Below, piece after piece: positions 1,828-29,067 of a DNA stretch of 41,421 bases. The notes beneath the pieces are model-generated. The model had not been told where the DNA came from. It worked only from the letters and a program-made list of their open reading frames with translations, and did no database searches. The stretch is from the NCBI GenBank assembly GCA_025358085.1, contig JANYKT010000153.1:1-41421 (forward strand). The letters are read 5' to 3'. This DNA is from Deltaproteobacteria bacterium (GTDB lineage Bacteria; Myxococcota; Myxococcia; Myxococcales; 40CM-4-68-19). Numbering within the stretch: position 1 is the stretch's first letter; each line of letters starts with the position of its first letter. The position numbers and the translations under genes were made by a program.

Positions 1828-3996
1828 ATGAGGTGGCTCCTGGTGCTTTGCTATCGCTGCGGTGGACACGTCAAAGACGCCTCCGAGAAGTGCACCAGCT
1901 GCGGGCAGCAGCTTGCCCCGAGCCTGAAGCCGGGCTCGGCTGCAGGCTTCGGCGTGGGGAACCGCCGGCATCGGGTGGCCGTCGAGGGAGCGCCGTACCG
2001 CGCCGGTGACATCGTGGCGGGCCGGTTCCTGGTTCGGGATCTCATAGGTCAGGGGCCGCTCGGCTGGATGTACCGCGCGGTCGAGATCAGCACCGACACT
2101 GCCATCGCGCTGAAGGTGCTTTCGCCGAGATTTCTTCAGGCGCCCGAGGAGAAGCGCGTCTTCCTCGCCGAGCAGCAGAAGGCGCAGCGGCTGTCGCACC
2201 AGAACATCGCCCAGGTCTACCAGGCGGGAGAGGACCAGGACCGGCCCTTCATTGTGCTGCAGCTGCTCGAAGGCCTGACATTGCGGCGGATCATGGAGCT
2301 GCGCCGGCAAAAGGGCCAGGGCTTCAGCCTCCAGGAAGTCGAGCCCATCGTGGCGCAGATCGCGGCCGCCCTCGAGGCGGCGGCGCGGACGTTCGCACAC
2401 GGCAACCTCAAGCCCGATAACGTGGTGGTGCTGCCTGACCTCCTCAAGCTCACGGACTTTGGCCTGGCGAGCAGCTTGCCGCGCGCGCCGTTCATGGCAG
2501 CGCAGCGCGCGAGCTTTGTGCATCGCTACCTCGCGCCCGAGTTCCTGCTGGGTGAGCCGCTCGACGCACGCACGGACGTATTCAGTCTGGGCGTCTTGCT
2601 GGGCGAGCTGCTCGGCGACACGCACCCGCAGGCGCAGCGCAGCCTGCTTTTGGACCGGCCGCAGTTGTCGCCGCGGCTCGAAGAGATGGTCCGGCACGCG
2701 GTGGCACCCCGCCCAGTGGACCGCTTCGCCAATGCGAACGAGCTTCTGGCCGAGCTGTCGGCGCTGGTCATGGCGGCGCCGCGGCAGTCGCCGCCCCCGG
2801 TTGACGACGACGCGGACGATGTCGTGATCGAGGAGGTGCACACCGATCCGCGGCTGCGGATCGCGCGGGCCTTGGCGGCGCAAGACACTGCGCCGTTGAT
2901 GCCGGCGCCGTTCGTAGCCCCGCCTTTTTATGAGCCGGCGGTGACGCGACCCGAGCGCACGGCGTCGCGAACCGGGAAGCTCCGTTCGCAGGACGAGGTG
3001 ACGGCACGGCATCAGGTGCCGCTGGCTCTGCGCGCGATGATGGTGCCGCCAGCAGAAGATCTTGCAAGCGAGGAGATCGCGGCAATCGAAGAGCAACCCG
3101 CGCAGCCGCAGATCCAATCCGATGCGGCCGTGCAGCGGGCGACCGCGGCCGAGGTGAAGCTGATCGAGGTCGCGGCCAGTGTCGGCGCGACGCCCGCGCT
3201 GCTCACCGCCGAGACAGCGGTCCGCGCCGCGCCGACGGAAGCGCCGCCACAGGCGCAGCCTGAAGAGCCCATTCTGAATCGGCCCCGGCGCGGCGCGGGC
3301 AAGCGCGGCAAAGAAAAGCTCAACAAGCGACTGCGACCGCGTCGCGGCAACCTGGCGGGCGAGGCGGGATTGACTCCCAGCTCGCCGCCGCTGGCCGCGG
3401 GCGCAAGCGTGCCACCGCCCGCAGTCGAGTCGAGCTTTCGGCAAATCGTCCCCAGCGCTGCGGGCTCCGCGAGCACGCCGCCTCTCGCGGCCATCGTCGA
3501 GGTGAAGAAGCGCCCCAAGGCCTTCATGGTGGCGACGGTGGCCATCGTCGCCGTTGCCATGCTGGTCGGCGCCGCGACCTTCCTGAACGGTCGCACAACT
3601 TCGACCGAGCTCGCTGCCGGAGACTCTCCGAAGACTTCAGCCGCGAGCAGCACGGCCAGCGCAGCCGTCGGCCCGGCTCCCGCCGCTACCGCGCCCAGAA
3701 CGCCGGGCAAGGCCGGCGAGAAGCCGGAGCCGCGCGATGCACCTGCCGCGCTCGAGAAGTCGAAGGCCCGTGCCATCGACCATCGCTCTCTGCGCGAGGA
3801 GATCCGCGCAGTGCGCGAGGCCGCGCGGCGGGCGCTCGACGCGCGAAAGCGCAAGCGCGACGAAGCGCTCGCGCAGACCAGTAAAACGCGCGCCGCTGTC
3901 AAGAGCGCAGCAGCGCATCCGGTCGCAATTCCAGCGCCTCTCGAAGCCGCGGCGCCTGTGGCGATCGCAGCGCCGCGGCTTCCGCTGCTGCGCTGA
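1828..3996 (+). CDS. Membrane-anchored zinc-ribbon Ser/Thr kinase-like protein (probable pseudokinase)
   Basis: A 722-residue Hanks-type kinase-fold protein. Residues 8-25 form a zinc ribbon (C8xxC11 and C22xxC25). The kinase domain spans about 68-315: a glycine loop GQGPLG (74-79), the ATP lysine in ALKVL (K96), HGNLKPDN (191-198), DFG (210-212) and APEFL. The HRD catalytic aspartate is replaced by asparagine (H191-G-N193), whereas the lysine, the second Asn and DFG are kept. Phosphotransfer is therefore doubtful although nucleotide binding may persist. Residues 320-560 are low-complexity Ala/Pro/Glu linker. A single transmembrane helix lies at about 565-586, followed by an Ala-rich tail ending in a basic, possibly coiled region. 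A GTG at 1843 (residue 6) is an alternative start. Role unknown; likely a signalling scaffold. Confidence 0.78.
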   Translation: MRWLLVLCYRCGGHVKDASEKCTSCGQQLAPSLKPGSAAGFGVGNRRHRVAVEGAPYRAGDIVAGRFLVRDLIGQGPLGWMYRAVEISTDTAIALKVLSPRFLQAPEEKRVFLAEQQKAQRLSHQNIAQVYQAGEDQDRPFIVLQLLEGLTLRRIMELRRQKGQGFSLQEVEPIVAQIAAALEAAARTFAHGNLKPDNVVVLPDLLKLTDFGLASSLPRAPFMAAQRASFVHRYLAPEFLLGEPLDARTDVFSLGVLLGELLGDTHPQAQRSLLLDRPQLSPRLEEMVRHAVAPRPVDRFANANELLAELSALVMAAPRQSPPPVDDDADDVVIEEVHTDPRLRIARALAAQDTAPLMPAPFVAPPFYEPAVTRPERTASRTGKLRSQDEVTARHQVPLALRAMMVPPAEDLASEEIAAIEEQPAQPQIQSDAAVQRATAAEVKLIEVAASVGATPALLTAETAVRAAPTEAPPQAQPEEPILNRPRRGAGKRGKEKLNKRLRPRRGNLAGEAGLTPSSPPLAAGASVPPPAVESSFRQIVPSAAGSASTPPLAAIVEVKKRPKAFMVATVAIVAVAMLVGAATFLNGRTTSTELAAGDSPKTSAASSTASAAVGPAPAATAPRTPGKAGEKPEPRDAPAALEKSKARAIDHRSLREEIRAVREAARRALDARKRKRDEALAQTSKTRAAVKSAAAHPVAIPAPLEAAAPVAIAAPRLPLLR

Positions 3997-5565: not shown

Positions 5566-6393
5566 ATGCGTTCAGTGCGACTTTGCGTCCTGTCGAGCGG
5601 CTCCGGAGGCAATTGTCTCTATGTCGAGACCGGCGCAACCCGCGTGCTGGTCGACGCCGGGCTGCCACTCAAGGAGACCGCGAAGCGTTGCGCCAGCGTC
5701 GGCGTCTCGGTGAAAGACGTCACCGACGTGCTGCTCACGCACGAGCACGCGGACCACTCGCACGCTGCGGGGATCCTCGCGCGGCGGCTGGGAGTGCAAG
5801 TGCACGCAACGCGCGGCACGCTGCAATCGCTGCGCGATCCGCCGCCTCCTGAGCTGAAAGTCCCGTTGCGGGGCGGTGAGCCGTTTCAGATTGGCGACCT
5901 TCGCATCACGCCGGTCGCCGTGCCGCACGACGCGAGCGAGCCGGTGGCTTATGTCTTTGAAGACGGCATGGGCGCTCGCGCGGCAATCGTCACTGACCTT
6001 GGCTGCGCGCCGCGAAAGGTCTTGCTCGCCCTGCAGGGTCTCGACGCGCTGGTGCTGGAGATGAACCACGACGCGCGGATGCTGCTGGAAGGTCCCTATC
6101 CATTCAGCCTGAAGCGCCGCATCCGCTCGGACCTCGGCCACCTCTCCAACGCCCAGGGCGCGCAGGTGCTGGCGCAGGTGCTGCACCCGGGTTTGCGGCA
6201 CGTCGTGCTCGCGCACCTGTCCGAGCACAACAACACCGAGCGTTGCGCGCGCACCGCCGCGGAGTGCGTGCTCGAGCGGGCCGGCAGCGGCGCGAACGTG
6301 GTTGTGGGCTCCCAGGCGCGGGCGCTGGAACCGCTGGATCTGCGAGCTTGCGTCCGCATTTCGAGGCCGCGCCAACTCGCACTCTTCGCCTGA
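5566..6393 (+). CDS. WalJ/YycJ-like metallo-beta-lactamase-fold hydrolase
   Basis: A 275-residue metallo-beta-lactamase-fold protein. The family opening VRLCVLSSGSGGNCLYVE is that of the YycJ/WalJ group, and the metal motif HEHADH (H59, H61, D63, H64) follows at the usual place. Later ligands are suggested by the PHDASEP block (about 125), the VTDLG block and HLSEHNN (about 222-228). Members of this group are soluble nucleases or nuclease-like hydrolases with two metal ions; WalJ has been linked to DNA processing in Firmicutes. The gene ends 21 bases before the VOC gene and may be co-transcribed with it. The start ATG at 5566 is the first in frame. The exact substrate is unknown. Confidence 0.8.
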   Translation: MRSVRLCVLSSGSGGNCLYVETGATRVLVDAGLPLKETAKRCASVGVSVKDVTDVLLTHEHADHSHAAGILARRLGVQVHATRGTLQSLRDPPPPELKVPLRGGEPFQIGDLRITPVAVPHDASEPVAYVFEDGMGARAAIVTDLGCAPRKVLLALQGLDALVLEMNHDARMLLEGPYPFSLKRRIRSDLGHLSNAQGAQVLAQVLHPGLRHVVLAHLSEHNNTERCARTAAECVLERAGSGANVVVGSQARALEPLDLRACVRISRPRQLALFA

Positions 6394-11470: not shown

Positions 11471-11502
11471 GGGGACACCATTTGATGAAGCATGGTGTCC
11501 CC
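11471..11502. repeat. Perfect 11-bp inverted repeat, REP-like hairpin
   Basis: GGGGACACCAT and ATGGTGTCCCC form a perfect stem around a 10-nt loop in the 185-bp gap between the Spy-like gene's promoter region and the 3' end of purC. No T-run follows on either strand, so it is not a standard intrinsic terminator. The GGTGTCCCC core is like the palindromes that I associate with REP-type elements mobilised by Y1 (RAYT) transposases; that link is from memory. Confidence 0.6.
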
Positions 11503-22449: not shown

Positions 22450-23000
22450 CTACTCGCGCGGGTGCGCGAGGAAGAAGTCGAGCAGCGTCGTGGTCGCATC
22501 CAGATCGGACGAAGTCCCTCCCCACAAACGGCACGCGGGTCCCGCCTGGCCAGGTGTGGCCGCCGCCCTTCAATGTGCAGGCGATCACCTCGGCGGCGCA
22601 GCCGTCCCGCGCAGTCCAGCGTGCACATGATTCCTGCGCCGGCTTCAATGACCACCAGCCGCCGCCATAATGCACCACTGGATCGCTCGTTGCCGCCGGG
22701 TCTCAAGATCCATACGACTGAGCAGCTGCTGCAATTCGGGCGACTCGGTAGTGCCGTGGACATTGCGCACCAGCGGCGCTGCAACTCCGGACAAATGGAC
22801 CGGCAGCACCAGGATGAATCGCCGGGTGCGGCCGCCGCTGGTGATCCGGCGCGGGCCGGACAAAGGAACTGGTGCCCCGGGCCGGCAGCCGCGACTACGC
22901 GCCGGCTTGGGCTTCGAGCCTCGTGCCAAGCGATATTGCAGGCGCCGAGGTTCAGCAGGCGGGCAGCGCAAAGCGCGAGCAGCAAAGTCGCGGGCCGCAT
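22450..23000 (-). pseudogene. Decayed LpqC/feruloyl-esterase-type hydrolase
   Basis: Pieces of a secreted alpha/beta hydrolase of the polyhydroxybutyrate-depolymerase / feruloyl-esterase (LpqC) type occur in different minus-strand frames. They are an ATG and signal peptide (MRPATLLLALCAARLLN) at 23000, then TSGGRTRRFILVLPVHLSG and HGTTESPELQQLLSRMDLE, then ESCARWTARDGC and TLKGGGHTWPGG, then the tail LLDFFLAHPRE with TAG at 22450-22452. The central part with the GxSxG nucleophile, normally over 100 residues, is deleted, and there are at least two frameshifts. It lay 5 bases after the stop of the methyltransferase gene and so was probably the last gene of that operon. Confidence 0.75.
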
Positions 23001-23005
23001 CAAGA

Positions 23006-23572
23006 TCAGGCCGGCTTGCGCAGGATGAACTCAATCTCTTCGAAGCCGCCGACCCAATAGCACCAGATCCGCGAGCAGACGAGCGGGGAGAGGTTGGCAA
23101 AGAGGTCAATCAGGAAGCCTGCCGCCGAGCCGAGCGTGGCGAGCCAGGCGGGCAGCACGCTCTTTTTGAGATACGGCTGCGCGAACCAGCGCATGCGGAC
23201 GCTGCGGCTTTCAAACTCGACGCCGCTATAGCCGCCGGGAAACTCCGGCTTGAAGTAATAGACGAAGGTGGCGTCAAAGCCGCGGCGGTGCTCCGGGTGC
23301 GAGAAGCCGCGAGAGAAATGCGGCACGCGGATGATCAGCGCGCCTCCCGGTTTGAGCACGCGGTGTATCTCCCGCATGACGCCGAAGATCTGCGGCAGAT
23401 GTTCGAGCACATGGTCGGCCTCGACGTGGTCGAACTGCTGGTCTGCGAATGGATAAGGCAATACCGAGAGATCGTGCACCACGTCCACGCCGGGAGTCGC
23501 GGTCCAGTCGACGTTGACGAATCCCGGCTTGGGAAAACGGCCGCATCCAAGATTGAGCTTGTTCTCCGGCAT
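23006..23572 (-). CDS. Class I SAM-dependent methyltransferase
   Basis: A 188-residue methyltransferase of the Methyltransf_11 group. The glycine motif is LNLGCGRFPKPGFVNVD (about 6-22), followed by the acidic post-II segment and FDHVEADHVLEHLPQIFGVM and REIHRVLKPGGALIIRVPHF, typical of sugar- and lipid-linked methyltransferases. The C-terminal third has a hydrophobic segment (LPAWLATLGSAAGFLIDLFA) that could touch the membrane. The ATG lies 13 bases after the stop of the membrane glycosyltransferase-like gene, so the two are probably co-transcribed and may modify the same envelope glycan or lipid; that is inference. The start is the first ATG in frame. Confidence 0.85.
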   Translation of the reverse strand: MPENKLNLGCGRFPKPGFVNVDWTATPGVDVVHDLSVLPYPFADQQFDHVEADHVLEHLPQIFGVMREIHRVLKPGGALIIRVPHFSRGFSHPEHRRGFDATFVYYFKPEFPGGYSGVEFESRSVRMRWFAQPYLKKSVLPAWLATLGSAAGFLIDLFANLSPLVCSRIWCYWVGGFEEIEFILRKPA

Positions 23573-23585
23573 CAGACAATTGGTA

Positions 23586-25217
23586 TCAGAATGGCGTCGC
23601 GCCGGGAGGAGGATTCGGCTCCCAGACCGAGGTCAGAAAGCGCGCCGCGCCTGCGTCAGAACCGCGGCGCGCACCAAGCTGGACTGCGGCCAGCAAGAGG
23701 AAGATCGCCAGCGCGGCGATCGCTCCGGTGGCGCGGCCCCGGACCACCGCCGGCAGGCGCAACGGTGCAGTCAGCAACAGAACAATCGCGATCCCCAAGG
23801 CCAGGAAATAGGGAAGCGCGCTCCAAAGACCCGGTACGCCCGCGGCCTGCAGAAGGTTGCGGGGAACATAGCCGTGCGCGAGCAGCGGCAGCGCAACCTC
23901 GACGAGCGGATTGAATGGCTCGGGCGGGAATCCCTGGGAGATGGCCGATGCGATACCGGTTGCCAGGACGCCAGCCGCACCAGCGCCGCCGAGAACGCTG
24001 AGCAGCAGCAGACGCCGTCCGGCGAGCGAGAGCCCGATGGCCACCGCGGCCATTGGAACCAGGGGCGTCATATAACGGGGACCGACCGCCCAGCCGCTGC
24101 GCCACAGTGATTGTGTGATTTGAAAGACGAGGTAATACCCGGTCACCGCGCACGCGGTCAGCGCCGCGCCCCGCCCGGCCCCGGCCCCGGCGCCCCGCCC
24201 GGCTCCGGCTCCGAAACCCTGCCAGAAGGCCGCATGGCCAATCAACAGGATCCAGGGCGCCCAATAGAAGAGACCCAGATAAGGCGCGAAGAGCGAACCG
24301 CCCACCCGCTCCCAGGTCGGCGAGGAGATGCCGAAGGGTCCCGGTGCCATATCGACGACATATCCCGGATTCTCAAGATGACTATAGCCAGTAGACCAGG
24401 GCGCCCCGAACGCCGCCCAATGAAAATGCGCCAGCAGCAGCAGAGGCAGCACAGAACCCAATGCGGCCAGCGCGAACCCGCGGAGGCCGGGCCGGCGCAC
24501 CAGCAGCCACGCGCCAGAAATCAGCAGCGCCGCCGGGCCTGCCTGGTATTCCATGCAGATGGCGGTGCCCGCGCCCAGGCCCACCAGGAAGGCGAGGCTT
24601 CTGCCCGGCCAGAATCCGGCCAACAGTGCAACACCGAGTGCAAGCGACGAAAGCTGGTGGCCTGCGAACATCTGCCCATACGTCAGCGAGAGCGAGCCGA
24701 GAGCGCCGCAGAGGACGCACGCGAGCGCGACCGCGGGCTCGACCGCGTGAGCAAGCAGGAAGCGCCGCAGAGCGATCCAGAAAGCGATGGTGGGCAGGAT
24801 GCAGAGCAGCCAGCGAAGCGCGAAGACATAGGCCGCCCTGGAAGGTGGCGCGCCGGTCATCGCAAGTAAAGCCGGACGGAGTGCGGCCACCACCGGCACC
24901 GCGAGCAACGACGGTCCGGGGGCCTTGGCTGCATATAAAGTCCCTTCGCAGGCCGGCGCCTGCCCTCCTCGGCAGACCAGAGCCTTATCGTTCACGTAGC
25001 CCCAATCCGAATAGACAGGGCCCCTATCAATGAGCTGTCCGTCTGCCCCGCGGACGCGCTCGCCGATGGCGTAAGTGCCGTGCTCGGCGATGGCCCGCGC
25101 CATGTAGATGCGGACCATCTCATTCGGGTTGTTGATCTTCCCGAAATAGACGAACAGCCAGCCGTAGGCGACGAGCAGCAGCAGGAACAGCCATTGCTCG
25201 ACGCGCTTGCCTGGCAT
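23586..25217 (-). CDS. Polytopic membrane protein, GT-C glycosyltransferase-like (paralogue A)
   Basis: A 543-residue protein with about 12 transmembrane helices. The N-terminal helix (LFLLLLVAYGWLFVYF) is followed by a large periplasmic loop with NPNEMVRIYMARAIAEHGTY, DRGPVYSDWGYVNDKALVC and YAAKAPGPSLLAVPV, resembling the first loop of PMT/ArnT-type GT-C enzymes. A Gly/Ala/Arg-rich low-complexity stretch (about 335-352) reflects a GC-rich simple repeat at about 24173-24213. It is similar in plan to the protein at 29178. It follows doxX on the same strand after 43 bases and precedes a methyltransferase by 13 bases. The likely job is transfer of a lipid-linked sugar at the membrane, but the acceptor is unknown. 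Confidence 0.65.
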   Translation of the reverse strand: MPGKRVEQWLFLLLLVAYGWLFVYFGKINNPNEMVRIYMARAIAEHGTYAIGERVRGADGQLIDRGPVYSDWGYVNDKALVCRGGQAPACEGTLYAAKAPGPSLLAVPVVAALRPALLAMTGAPPSRAAYVFALRWLLCILPTIAFWIALRRFLLAHAVEPAVALACVLCGALGSLSLTYGQMFAGHQLSSLALGVALLAGFWPGRSLAFLVGLGAGTAICMEYQAGPAALLISGAWLLVRRPGLRGFALAALGSVLPLLLLAHFHWAAFGAPWSTGYSHLENPGYVVDMAPGPFGISSPTWERVGGSLFAPYLGLFYWAPWILLIGHAAFWQGFGAGAGRGAGAGAGRGAALTACAVTGYYLVFQITQSLWRSGWAVGPRYMTPLVPMAAVAIGLSLAGRRLLLLSVLGGAGAAGVLATGIASAISQGFPPEPFNPLVEVALPLLAHGYVPRNLLQAAGVPGLWSALPYFLALGIAIVLLLTAPLRLPAVVRGRATGAIAALAIFLLLAAVQLGARRGSDAGAARFLTSVWEPNPPPGATPF

Positions 25218-25260
25218 GCGCCGTTGGTATCACGCCTTTAGGAAATCAAGAGCCTTGGAC

Positions 25261-25803
25261 TTACTGCCTCGCGGAAGGCGCGGACAGCCCGTGCATCGTT
25301 TGAATGCCTCTGTCGCTCGATGGCGCTGGACTCTTCAGTCGGGCATCCAGGGCGAGCGGCCCCGGCCCTTCGAGGAGCAGGAAGAGGCTCACCGCAAGCT
25401 GCGCCCACTCGGAGCGGATCTCATGAAGCACGGCCCAGATACCGGAGATCGGCGGAGCGGGAGGAGGCGGGAGCGGCGACGTTCCCAGGAAGATTCCAAT
25501 CTTCGTCGAGAGCATGGCAACCACCATTTCGGCGATGAACGCGATTGCAATGGGCCGCGTCGCGAGCCCAAGCAGAATGAGGATCCCACCAACAATCTCG
25601 AGCGAGGCGACGAAATGAGCGGTCTGCACGGGAAACGGCATCCCCAGCTTGGTGAACCGCCCCACTCCCTGGTTTACGAAGGCGAACTTCATGCATCCTT
25701 CCCAAAGAAAGACGGAGCCGGCCATGATCCGGAGAACCAGTGTGGCCGGGGGGGCGGCAAGGGGAGGGAAGGCAAGCCAGCGAGTGAATGCAGCGACTTT
25801 CAT
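25261..25803 (-). CDS. DoxX-family membrane protein
   Basis: A 180-residue four-helix membrane protein of the DoxX/TQO-small-subunit superfamily. It has LVLRIMAGSVFLWEGCMKFA, then F-x-K-L-G-M-P-F-P, HFVASLEIVGGILILLGLATRP and a fourth helix around 140-158. DoxX proteins are linked to membrane redox or thiol stress; this one is unassigned. The start ATG (25801-25803) is preceded by GAGG 7 bases upstream, and 40 bases upstream of that lies an ECF-type -10. It is divergent from the sigma/anti-sigma pair, so it is probably part of that regulon. The C-terminal 25 residues are Pro/Ser rich. Confidence 0.88.
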   Translation of the reverse strand: MKVAAFTRWLAFPPLAAPPATLVLRIMAGSVFLWEGCMKFAFVNQGVGRFTKLGMPFPVQTAHFVASLEIVGGILILLGLATRPIAIAFIAEMVVAMLSTKIGIFLGTSPLPPPPAPPISGIWAVLHEIRSEWAQLAVSLFLLLEGPGPLALDARLKSPAPSSDRGIQTMHGLSAPSARQ

Positions 25804-25842
25804 GATTGACCTCGGGTCAGGGGTTGAAACGTCGCCGGTGCA

Positions 25843-25867
25843 GACGGGCTGGTTCCGGAATCGTTCC
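25843..25867 (-). promoter_or_regulatory. Putative ECF-type promoter reading toward doxX
   Basis: On the minus strand GGAAC (25867-25863) is followed after exactly 16 bases by CGTC (25846-25843), the standard ECF -35/-10 arrangement. The doxX ATG lies 40 bases further on. Its -35 forms one arm of the inverted repeat 25859-25883. Confidence 0.55.
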
Positions 25868-25874
25868 CGGCCAG

Positions 25875-25899
25875 GGAACGATTTTTTGGCGCAGACGTT
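25875..25899 (+). promoter_or_regulatory. Putative autoregulated ECF-type promoter reading toward the sigma gene
   Basis: GGAAC (25875-25879), 16 bases, then CGTT (25896-25899). With the opposite-strand copy this makes a back-to-back pair in which the two -35 boxes form a 10-bp inverted repeat (AATCGTTCCC...GGGAACGATT). The sigma gene begins 34 bases downstream. Confidence 0.55.
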
Positions 25900-25933
25900 T
25901 GGCCAAGGGTGACAGGAGGGGTATGTCTCTCGA

Positions 25934-26458
25934 ATGTTCGGCTTTGGAGGGGGCGCTCGCAGACGACTGCTGCGCGATGCGCTCGCGCATGCGGACGCCC
26001 TGCACAACCTCGCTCGCTATCTCACCGGTACCGCGGCCGACGCCGAAGATTTGGTGCAGGAAACCTTCGCGCGGGCGGCCGGCGCAGCGGATCGCCTGGC
26101 TCCCGGCGTCAATCTCCGGGCCTGGCTCTTTCGTATCCTGCGCAATGCGCATCTCGATCAATGCCGCCGCGCCGGCCACGATCCGGCGCGTCCGGGCGAG
26201 GATGACGGCGCGCTTGAAGAGGCCGCCGACCCTCAGCAAGATCCCGAATCGGCCTGGCTGCGCAAATGCGCGGCGCTGGAGCTGGAGGCCGCTTTGCGCT
26301 CGCTGAGTGAAGACCGGCGGACGGTGATCCTGCTTGATCTCGAGGGTTTGCCTGACGGAGAAATCGCGCAGGTGCTGGGCTGCGCGCCCGGGACGGTCAA
26401 GTCGCGACTCTCACGCGCGCGGGCCGAGCTGCGGCGAACGCTGCGGAGGGCGGAATGA
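25934..26458 (+). CDS. ECF RNA polymerase sigma factor
   Basis: A 174-residue group-4 sigma factor. Region 2 includes LHNLARYLTGTAADAEDLVQ (the DAEDLVQETF core-binding motif) and LRAWLFRILRNAHLDQCRRA. Region 4 has LSEDRRTVILLDLEGLPDGEI and the helix-turn-helix GCAPGTVKSRLSRARAELRR. No extra domain follows. An AGGAGGG lies 13 bases before the ATG, a little far. An ATG at 25923 in another frame is nearer, so the first codons are uncertain. The stop codon overlaps the anti-sigma ATG (ATGA), typical of coupled sigma/anti-sigma pairs. It probably controls its own operon and doxX through the divergent promoters upstream. Confidence 0.93.
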   Translation: MFGFGGGARRRLLRDALAHADALHNLARYLTGTAADAEDLVQETFARAAGAADRLAPGVNLRAWLFRILRNAHLDQCRRAGHDPARPGEDDGALEEAADPQQDPESAWLRKCAALELEAALRSLSEDRRTVILLDLEGLPDGEIAQVLGCAPGTVKSRLSRARAELRRTLRRAE

Positions 26459-27213
26459 AGCCGATGGATCACGCCGTCGCACGGGAGCTTTTGATCGATG
26501 ATCAGCGTGGACGGCTTACGCCTTCGCAGCGCGTCGAGCTGCGGACCCATCTGGACGGGTGCGCCGCGTGCCGCGCGTTCGATGCGCGCGAGACCACTCT
26601 CACCTCCGCGCTGGAGCAGAGCCTGCCGCGCTATCCCGCTTCGCTGGCGCTGCGCCGGAAACTCAACGCGCGGCTGGGCGAAGAGCGCGTGCCTCGCCTC
26701 CGCTGGGCCCGCGCGGCGCGAATAGTGAGCGCGGCCGCCGCGGTGGTGCTGGTCGCCGTCCTAGTGCGACAGCAGCGCGACGCGGGCCTGCGCACCGTGG
26801 GAGAAGAGACGGTGAGCGACCATCTGCGCTTGCTGGACGGGGAACTGCGTCTCCAGGTCATCAGCAGCGGCATCCACGAGGTGAAACCATGGTTCGCGGG
26901 CCGGCTTGATTTTGCGCCCGAGCATGTCTTTGCCGGCGATGCCGAGCTACCGCTGCAGGGTGGCGCGGTTGCCCGCTTCCTCGACCGGAAGGCCGCGCTG
27001 CTGGTCTACAAGCGGCGCGAGCACCTGATTTCGCTCTTCGTGCTTCGCCCCGACGGGCTCGACTGGCCAGAAGCCGGGAGCCCGCGCTCGCTTCAGCTGC
27101 GCGGTTTCCACCTCGTGCTGTGGCGCACCGGCGACCTCGGATACGCGCTCGCGTCAGACCTGGAAACCGGCGAACTGGGCCGCCTTGCGACGCAACTCGA
27201 GGCAACGCGCTGA
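26455..27213 (+). CDS. Membrane-bound zinc-finger anti-sigma factor
   Basis: A 252-residue single-pass protein. Residues 1-45 form a ZAS-type anti-sigma domain with HLDGCAAC (H32xxxC36xxC39), which coordinates zinc and can sense thiol oxidation. A transmembrane helix lies at about 89-104, placing a domain of about 145 residues in the periplasm; it is similar to the C-terminal domain of other anti-sigma factors (LDFAPEHVFAGDAELPLQGG, AALLVYKRREHLISLFVL). Release of the upstream sigma factor is the expected role. The periplasmic part has two strands with conserved Arg/His but no cysteine. It converges with the M3 peptidase gene. Confidence 0.87.
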   Translation: MKPMDHAVARELLIDDQRGRLTPSQRVELRTHLDGCAACRAFDARETTLTSALEQSLPRYPASLALRRKLNARLGEERVPRLRWARAARIVSAAAAVVLVAVLVRQQRDAGLRTVGEETVSDHLRLLDGELRLQVISSGIHEVKPWFAGRLDFAPEHVFAGDAELPLQGGAVARFLDRKAALLVYKRREHLISLFVLRPDGLDWPEAGSPRSLQLRGFHLVLWRTGDLGYALASDLETGELGRLATQLEATR

Positions 27214-27222
27214 CCAAGCTTT

Positions 27223-29067
27223 TCAGGCCGCGTTCAGCCATTGCTCGAATGCGCTGAAGTCATAAGGCCTTCCCAGGAAGTCGCTCACCAGCTCGGCGGC
27301 TTTTTTCGAACCGCCCGGCTCCAGCACGGCCTTTCGATAGCGCCGCGCCGGCGCGGGATTCAATAACCCTTCGCGGCGGAAGGTGGTGAAGAGGTCCTTC
27401 GCAATCACCAGCGACCACATATAAGTGTAATAGATGGCCGAGTAGCCTTCAAGGTGGCCGAAGCTCTCGTGGAAGTACGTGCCGGGCACGGTGCGGAACG
27501 GCGTGTAGCGCGCCTGCAACTCCGCCACCAGCGCGGTCGCGTCCAGCCCGGCCGGATCGCGATCGTGCAGGGATAGAGAGGTCGCCGCGTAGAACATCTG
27601 CTGCCGCACGCGCAGGCCTTTGCCGAACTCGTCGGCTGCACGCATCCGGGCCACCAGTCCGGCAGGGATTGGCTCATTGCTGTCGATATGAAGGGCAAAG
27701 TCCGCCAGGACCTCGGCGTCCCAGCACCATTCCTCCAGCATCTGCGAGGGCGCCTCGACGAAGTCCCATTCGGTGCGAACTCCGGAGAGCCCGGCCCAGC
27801 GCGTGCGTCCGCCAAGCAGATGGTGCAGGAGATGGCCGAATTCGTGAAAGAAGGTGACGACTTCGGTGTGCTCCATGAGCGCAGGCGCGACTTGCGGGAA
27901 ATTGCACAGCAGAGCCGCCTCGGGGAGCGTGCCGCCGGCCACGCCCGACGCCAGCGTGAATTGCGCCGCGTGTTTGTACTTGCCCTCGCGCGGGAAGAGA
28001 TCGAGGAAGAACCGGCCCACGCAAGCGCCGTCTTCCATCAGGTCCCAGGCCGTTACGGCCGGGTGCCAGACCGGCGCATCCGAGGCGCGGTATTCGATTC
28101 CAAAGAGCCGCGCAGTCAAGTCGAACAGTCCTCGCTGGACCCGGGAGACCTCGAAATACGGCCGCACCGATTGGGAATCGAATGCGTACTGGTCGGCGCG
28201 GATGCGTTCTTTCGCGAACTCCGCATCCCACGGCTCGACAGCGGGAGCTTCCCCTCGCAATTGATCGTAATCCCGCTGCGCCCGCTCCCTTGATGCGGTC
28301 GCAATGCGCTCGATGAAGTCCCGCGCGGCGCTCGCGCTGCCGATCATCTTGTCCCCGGTGATGTAAGCGGCCCAGGATTCATATCCGAGCAGCCGCGCCA
28401 GCTCGTATCGCTTCTCCAGCATCCGCTGCAGCACCGCGCTGTTCTGCGGGTGCGCGCGCTGCCGGTACACGCGCCAGAGTTCCTCCCGCGCCTTCGAGCT
28501 GCGCGCATAGGTCATGAACGGCAGGTAATCAGGCGTATCGGTGGTGATCCGTTTTTCGGGGTGCGAGCGGATGTAATCGGCAGGCAGGCCGCTCAAGTCA
28601 TCGGCAATGATGCTGGGCATATCGTCGCAAATGTTACGGCTGAACTCCTGGCCAATCTTGACCAGCTCTTCATTCAATTCTCGCACCCGCGCGCGGGTAG
28701 CAGCGTCCTGGTCCACTCCGGCGCGGCGAAAGTCGCGCAGCGTGCGCTCCAGGTAATAGTCGCCGGCCGGTACCGCGGCGAGCGCAGCATAGATCTCCGG
28801 ATCGAGCGAGAGCTCGGTGTTCAACGCCTCCAGCTCCTGTTCGCACTTCTCGGCGGCGTCGCGCATGGCCGCGTCGGGGTGCGCATTGCGCGCGACGCTC
28901 GCCCGCGCGCTCGCGTCGCCCAGCGTCGCGAACGCCAGATCCCACAATTCGAGCGCGGCGCCTCCAGCTTTGAGTCGCGCCACCGCCTCTCGCGCCTGCC
29001 GCAACGCCGCCTGCGACGCGGCGATGAATTGATCAGGTGTCCCTGCCAGCAGTCGAGAAGCCGTCAT
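27223..29067 (-). CDS. M3-family zinc oligopeptidase
   Basis: A 614-residue cytoplasmic metallopeptidase of the thimet-oligopeptidase/oligopeptidase A type (M3A). The zinc site is HEFGH (408-412) in VVTFFHEFGHLLHHLLGG, with the third ligand Glu in WDFVEAPSQMLEEW (about 438). The substrate-binding tail FRTVPGTYFHESFGHLEGYS carries the usual Tyr/His/Gly loop. The length is shorter than E. coli OpdA (680) but within the family range. AAGGAGG lies 7 bases before the ATG and fixes the start. It degrades peptides left by ATP-dependent proteases, or cleaves signal peptides; no specific partner is adjacent. Confidence 0.93.
   Translation of the reverse strand: MTASRLLAGTPDQFIAASQAALRQAREAVARLKAGGAALELWDLAFATLGDASARASVARNAHPDAAMRDAAEKCEQELEALNTELSLDPEIYAALAAVPAGDYYLERTLRDFRRAGVDQDAATRARVRELNEELVKIGQEFSRNICDDMPSIIADDLSGLPADYIRSHPEKRITTDTPDYLPFMTYARSSKAREELWRVYRQRAHPQNSAVLQRMLEKRYELARLLGYESWAAYITGDKMIGSASAARDFIERIATASRERAQRDYDQLRGEAPAVEPWDAEFAKERIRADQYAFDSQSVRPYFEVSRVQRGLFDLTARLFGIEYRASDAPVWHPAVTAWDLMEDGACVGRFFLDLFPREGKYKHAAQFTLASGVAGGTLPEAALLCNFPQVAPALMEHTEVVTFFHEFGHLLHHLLGGRTRWAGLSGVRTEWDFVEAPSQMLEEWCWDAEVLADFALHIDSNEPIPAGLVARMRAADEFGKGLRVRQQMFYAATSLSLHDRDPAGLDATALVAELQARYTPFRTVPGTYFHESFGHLEGYSAIYYTYMWSLVIAKDLFTTFRREGLLNPAPARRYRKAVLEPGGSKKAAELVSDFLGRPYDFSAFEQWLNAA

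Follow-up and report, generated by a model that had tools for sequence, protein, structure and literature searches.

ECF sigma factors, according to PMC8103513, have a linker limited to 50 residues and act at a canonical promoter with AAC in the -35 and CGT in the -10 element. The same text describes autoregulated ECF sigma/anti-sigma modules as well as the EcfG/NepR/PhyR locus, in which divergent units are both driven by one ECF sigma factor from promoters with AAC and CGTT. Bidirectional promoters in E. coli share a -10 element, with transcription starts ~10–23 bp apart and polymerases that can compete (PMC12825309). An ECF sigma factor and DoxX occur in one paper for RpoE2 of Haemophilus influenzae (PMC7907618) and for sigmaF of Caulobacter crescentus (PMC3511200); the comparison with these systems is by co-mention, and the DoxX protein described below scores 44.1 bits against the HvfX NCBIfam model (copper-RiPP maturation), under the cut-off of 80. 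The text examined on the copper-dependent sigma factor CorE (PMC3107203) contains nothing comparable, and no title or abstract among the matches listed by a full-text literature search describes phased back-to-back ECF promoters.

The locus presented here lies in a stretch of 41,421 nucleotides that was analysed as a whole (the window; Table 1). It resembles the autoregulated modules in its sigma2–sigma4 protein, overlapping downstream anti-sigma gene, AAC -35 and CGT -10 elements and putative own promoter; it differs from them in having the promoter twice, the two copies abutting and facing opposite ways, and in the helical-turn distance classes that such pairs display in the Rokubacteria phylum. 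With the EcfG/NepR/PhyR locus it would share a divergent pair of units controlled by one ECF sigma factor, with AAC and CGTT in their promoters, but the partner here is a zf-HC2 anti-sigma factor and the divergent gene is doxX or encodes an envelope protein, and is not phyR. Neither NepR nor PhyR, which characterise EcfG, is encoded beside the sigma gene, whose neighbours are the zf-HC2 anti-sigma gene and doxX. One short symmetric element would serve two opposed transcripts, as at the E. coli bidirectional promoters; in contrast to these, it is the -35 boxes that abut, while the -10 boxes (25843–25846 and 25896–25899) are 49 bp apart in the window and none is shared.

Table 1. Features of the sigma/doxX locus (positions in the window)
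Feature	Position	Strand	Description
Methyltransferase-like protein	23006..23572	-	Methyltransf_11 3.1e-11
543-aa protein, downstream of doxX	23586..25217	-	no Pfam or NCBIfam match
doxX, 180 aa	25261..25803	-	PF07681 1e-16
Predicted doxX promoter	25843..25867	-	-35 GGAAC 25867-25863, N16, -10 CGTC 25846-25843
Perfect inverted repeat, 10-bp arms, 5-bp loop	25859..25883	.	AATCGTTCCC-GGCCA-GGGAACGATT
Predicted sigma/anti-sigma promoter	25875..25899	+	-35 GGAAC 25875-25879, N16, -10 CGTT 25896-25899
ECF sigma factor, 174 aa	25934..26458	+	Sigma70_r2 3.8e-17, Sigma70_r4_2 2.3e-16
Anti-sigma factor	26455..27213	+	N-terminal zf-HC2 1.8e-6; 4-bp overlap (ATGA) with sigma gene

The sigma factor consists of sigma2 and sigma4 only, matched at residues 18–81 and 115–166 of 174 and joined by a short linker; with an adjacent anti-sigma gene and with AAC in the -35 and CGT in the -10 of its own promoter, it has the features of an ECF (group 4) factor. 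Besides the ECF superfamily model, the 24 top-scoring NCBIfam sigma models were all under their cut-offs (best 25 of 87). By our own reading of its sequence, the anti-sigma factor would span the membrane once and expose its C-terminal domain on the outer side. At one orthologous locus (L033) the called frame of the anti-sigma ortholog (5649–6326, minus strand) begins past the zinc-finger segment, and a second anti-sigma-like gene lies upstream of the sigma gene on the same strand.

The sequence-only reading had proposed GGAAC-N16-CGTC on the minus strand and GGAAC-N16-CGTT on the plus strand sharing an inverted repeat, and this arrangement is exact to the base at 25843–25899. Its term 'head to head' was loose, the true layout being divergent, or back to back. 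The arms of the repeat are the two extended -35 boxes (the boxes and their flanks), with a gap of 7 bp from GTTCC to GGAAC. The predicted plus promoter ends 34 bases before the sigma ATG and the predicted minus promoter 39 bases before the doxX ATG. A second GGAAC is found on the minus strand (GTTCC at 25852 on the plus strand), the closest CGTT being 20 bases off. The inverted repeat alone is not special: a search for arms of at least 10 bp and loops of 3–20 returned 12 rows at 8 distinct places in the window, including two longer perfect inverted repeats at 3943–3982 and 11471–11502 (13- and 11-bp arms).

It is the conservation of the promoter pair that sets the element apart. Eleven sigma loci were assembled from the window, four clear orthologs among 60 relatives, four from an order search of 145 genomes and two Rokubacteria found by contig scan, and their sigma factors form one clade in a tree of 42 ECF proteins (support 98/97). 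Under one motif rule, which looked for GGAAC-N15-18-CGTY between 300 bp before and 30 bp after the expected start, the motif precedes the sigma gene on the plus strand in 11/11 and on the minus strand in 8/11 orthologs, as opposed to 2 and 0 at 112 other ECF loci, a control set that overstates independence because it includes near-copies. When each of the 11 ortholog upstream regions was shuffled 300 times with dinucleotides preserved, the plus promoter arose in 2.3% and the minus promoter in 1.3%, and the back-to-back pair never. From 195 genomes of the window's phylum a profile of the 11 sigma factors retrieved nine loci, all already known (scores of at least 245, next 169), and from 60 genomes of a Rokubacterium's order it retrieved 29 loci (at least 230.9, next 177). 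Of the latter, 27 were new, and 22 of these carry the motif on the plus and 20 on the minus strand, in a stretch of at most 340 bp that leads up to the conserved domain. The motif of the sigma gene's own promoter, which bears on positive autoregulation, is thus retained at 33 of 38 loci. The pair is missing in 10 of the 38: contig ends cut two (L313 and L326), four have neither promoter (L317, L333, L334 and L335) and four have the plus promoter only; at L325 the minus -35 box is kept at 13 bp with no -10. The four copies with neither promoter all reside in Rokubacteria genomes that hold another copy of the sigma gene.

A search that ignored genes altogether (AACG-N16-GTTCC-N0-30-GGAAC-N16-CGTT, 95 genomes of the Rokubacteria phylum) found 27 sites in 23 genomes and none for the reversed pattern. 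Each of these 23 genomes belongs to the 25, of 60 searched with the profile, that have a clear sigma ortholog; 72 of the 95 genomes have no site, 35 of them outside the sigma search. By contig, 21 of the 27 sites adjoin a sigma gene and six do not. Loosening the pattern, at the cost of 2 control matches, brings in a further AACG...CGTT site in G206 with a gap of 24, as well as five sites in which one end is degenerate: one in G145 (gap 29) and four (gaps 21, 3, 0 and 22) whose genomes have no clear sigma ortholog.

Within the genome itself the shorter motif is uninformative. The regulon search put forward in the sequence-only reading was run and had no power, GGAAC-N15-17-CGTT matching 74 times in 5.4 Mb against 161 times for the reversed pattern, with no bulk enrichment. 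The extended form GGGAACGATT-N12-CGTY occurs exactly three times, twice at this locus; the third site, GGGAACGATT-N12-CGTC (L188, G000:C71:75021-75046, minus strand), stands 55 bp ahead of a MEDS-domain gene (PF14417, 9e-43), which we consider a candidate regulon member. With up to two mismatches the extended motif has 64 matches versus 35 for its reverse, and none of the inexact sites inspected (L190, L191, L192 and L203) was convincing. In ten genomes GGAACGRTY-N11-13-CGTY yields 53 matches, in nine of them, versus 17 reversed; matches beyond the sigma loci were set aside because many fall inside reading frames, gene calling being crude.

The sequences of the two promoters, their specificity to the sigma clade and the conservation of the divergent pair are directly established, and the comparison supports well the earlier claim that the sigma factor would drive both its own gene and doxX. 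From them we infer transcription, its dependence on this sigma factor, the competition of holoenzymes and an envelope or redox signal. We regard the element, with a probability of roughly 0.8, as a bidirectional control unit that belongs to an autoregulated ECF sigma/anti-sigma pair. Upon release of the sigma factor by its anti-sigma factor, the holoenzyme would be free to recognise two opposed copies of one promoter, with the extended -35 GGGAACGATT in this genome and a CGTY -10, and would transcribe sigma and anti-sigma genes on one side as feedback and doxX on the other as output. At a separation of 7 bp between the boxes, two holoenzymes would probably compete for the site. The inverted repeat would be a by-product of a single sigma factor reading both -35 boxes. 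The nine bases flanking the -35 boxes agree within loci at 44 of 72 positions against 27.9 between loci (p 5e-5, first eight pairs); such agreement is expected if a single sigma factor reads both boxes, and local homogenisation of palindromes is an alternative source of it.

What counts against a control unit also feeds its most durable rival, that only the plus promoter depends on the sigma factor, doxX being read from another promoter and the window's minus motif being a relic. The window has CGTC as its minus -10, the doxX orthologs of G004 and G008 (70–75% identical) are preceded by different sequence with no GGAAC-CGTY pair, and the loci lacking a pair include orthologs that retain the plus promoter alone. 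Against this, the divergent gene is doxX in G006 and G096 as it is in the window, with the minus-strand motif in all three, and a sigma70-type scan of 23000–27400, which covers that consensus only, revealed no promoter. We therefore hold this rival to be improbable.

The bidirectional control unit may have a further, geometric property. The gaps between -35 boxes are 7, 13, 14, 14, 16, 23, 33 and 97 bp in the first eight pairs, the window's phylum contributing 7, 13, 14, 16, 23, 33 and 97. At the 27 gene-blind sites they are 2 (one site), 3 (11), 14 (three), 15 (one), 22 (three), 23 (four), 24 (three) and 25 (one), leaving 0–1, 4–13, 16–21 and 26–30 empty. They cluster near 3, 13–16 and 22–25 bp, in steps of about one DNA turn, and for a period of 10.5 bp the 27 sites give a Rayleigh R of 0.88, with a p of 8e-10 that assumes an independence which the sites lack. 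On the tree of the 38 sigma loci the gap classes interleave, with 19 changes for five labels versus 22.4 in shuffles, and sister loci differ by 10 (L322/L324), 19 (L032/L182), 21 (L308/L307) and 9 bp (L310/L327). Counted as events taken from this tree by eye, where deep forks are weak and L307/L308 and L310/L327 are weakly supported, phasing has a p of 0.0004 for 16 events, 0.00005 without the window and 0.037 for the strictest nine events; it has 0.024 for eight class centres and 0.16 for the seven gaps of the window's phylum alone. Helical phasing of the gap is hence probable though short of certain; the window's own gap of 7 bp falls out of phase.

Phasing would be explained by a fixed rotational relation of two holoenzymes or by a shared alpha-CTD. 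A bolder proposal, which we offer tentatively and would not ourselves back at even odds, is that the opposed promoters form one helically phased unit whose gap moves in steps of about one turn (3, 13–16, 22–25, 33 bp), such that two holoenzymes keep a constant rotational relation and make contact, or else use in common a protein or an alpha-CTD docking site located between the boxes; the pair might then be a cooperative or strictly alternating two-way switch, and the window would represent a lineage that left the rule. Gaps of 22–25 bp look A/T-rich in their middle, a hint towards alpha-CTD that fails a shuffle test. A shared UP element is not claimed for these gaps: an A/T run of at least 4 is present in 6 of 9 (p 0.064; centrality p 0.11), three near-copies having been dropped from 12.

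The same tendency of the gap to follow the helical repeat is found with dimeric regulators, and the inverted repeat might accordingly be the operator of such a protein, with the promoter-like boxes being part of the operator or coincidental; its perfect 10-bp arms in the window and the agreement of half-sites within loci would suit such a protein. Yet the gap spans 2 to 97 bp and the element is therefore not one fixed operator, which led us to reject that form of the idea, while 27 sites retain a -10 box at N16 on either side and lone plus copies precede sigma genes without a partner. An operator is in our estimation very unlikely. Least probable is an intrinsic terminator formed by the repeat and T residues, as the RNA fold (-18.1 kcal/mol, z -2.9) and the T run behind the repeat on the plus strand might suggest, and it was rejected: the repeat precedes both predicted starts and sits in a divergent intergenic region, it is not among the hits of the terminator scan, and 27 other pairs have, by eye, no comparable T run after the plus arm.

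The reach of the bidirectional control unit on the doxX side is a separate matter. An operon of doxX, a 'glycosyltransferase-like' gene and a methyltransferase gene had been predicted. The glycosyltransferase label could not be confirmed, the 543-aa protein having no match among Pfam or NCBIfam models. Close packing of the three genes and the lack of a terminator between them speak for the operon; the terminator scan from doxX to the methyltransferase gene gave a sole match at 23721–23703, inside the 543-aa gene, where shuffles average 3.0. Against it stands the gene order, which is missing in relatives: by our own gene calling, doxX is followed by a convergent gene in G006 and G096, and within ~1.5 kb of the 543-aa orthologs of seven relatives there is neither doxX nor a methyltransferase of the window's type. 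A conserved operon was consequently rejected, the order not being kept in the relatives fetched; read-through from doxX into the two genes is possible, and their membership of an operon under the sigma factor appears doubtful. Orthologs of the 543-aa protein are present in 12/12 family genomes searched, the window's own included, and an M3 peptidase gene is beside them in five of seven relatives, the other two loci ending near the gene. In the window the M3 peptidase gene is beyond the anti-sigma gene. Thus, at 23586–29067, the 543-aa and M3 peptidase genes flank the sigma/doxX module, and in several relatives they are tail to tail. The module between them looks like a local insertion or inversion, a rearrangement of the lineage.

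Elsewhere in the clade the divergent gene varies. It encodes a metallophosphoesterase in G065 and a small protein without Pfam match in G031, while in G043 a MetOD1 gene followed by a histidine kinase gene diverges from sigma. In G060 (L182) it encodes a small exported protein that by eye resembles a protein near L181, where a cupredoxin match is below cut-off. A cupredoxin and/or metallophosphoesterase is encoded at 18 of the 21 sigma-linked sites of Rokubacteria (by eye; one of each was checked with Pfam), with other proteins at L306, L307 and L327. At L342 (G204:C683) the pair sits between a cupredoxin gene and an apparent anti-sigma remnant with no adjoining sigma gene. The MEDS gene at the third extended site fits the MetOD1 gene of G043, because both domains, going by their Pfam names, are parts of DcmR-type sensors. 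Envelope or redox/copper proteins may constitute the common theme of these outputs. A related layout, ATTCC-N4-GGAAT, is seen at a sigma-like locus of G004 (L007) and before doxX in G004 (L119) and G008 (L121), with CAGTC-, AAGTC- or CCGTC-like sequences at N16 (by eye); possibly, a sister sigma factor with another -35 code controls doxX there.

These results define an ECF sigma clade in the window's phylum and in Rokubacteria, together with a predicted promoter code and predicted outputs that include DoxX, cupredoxin, metallophosphoesterase and MEDS/MetOD1 proteins. The locus is a variant of the known autoregulated ECF arrangement, and its spacing rule, broken by the window itself, is testable: the natural spacing series lends itself to a direct test of the way in which two divergent polymerases would share -35 boxes that abut. 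Set back to back between a stress-response sigma gene and the membrane-protein gene opposite, the mirror-image start signals recur in distantly related bacteria and could together work as one two-way switch.
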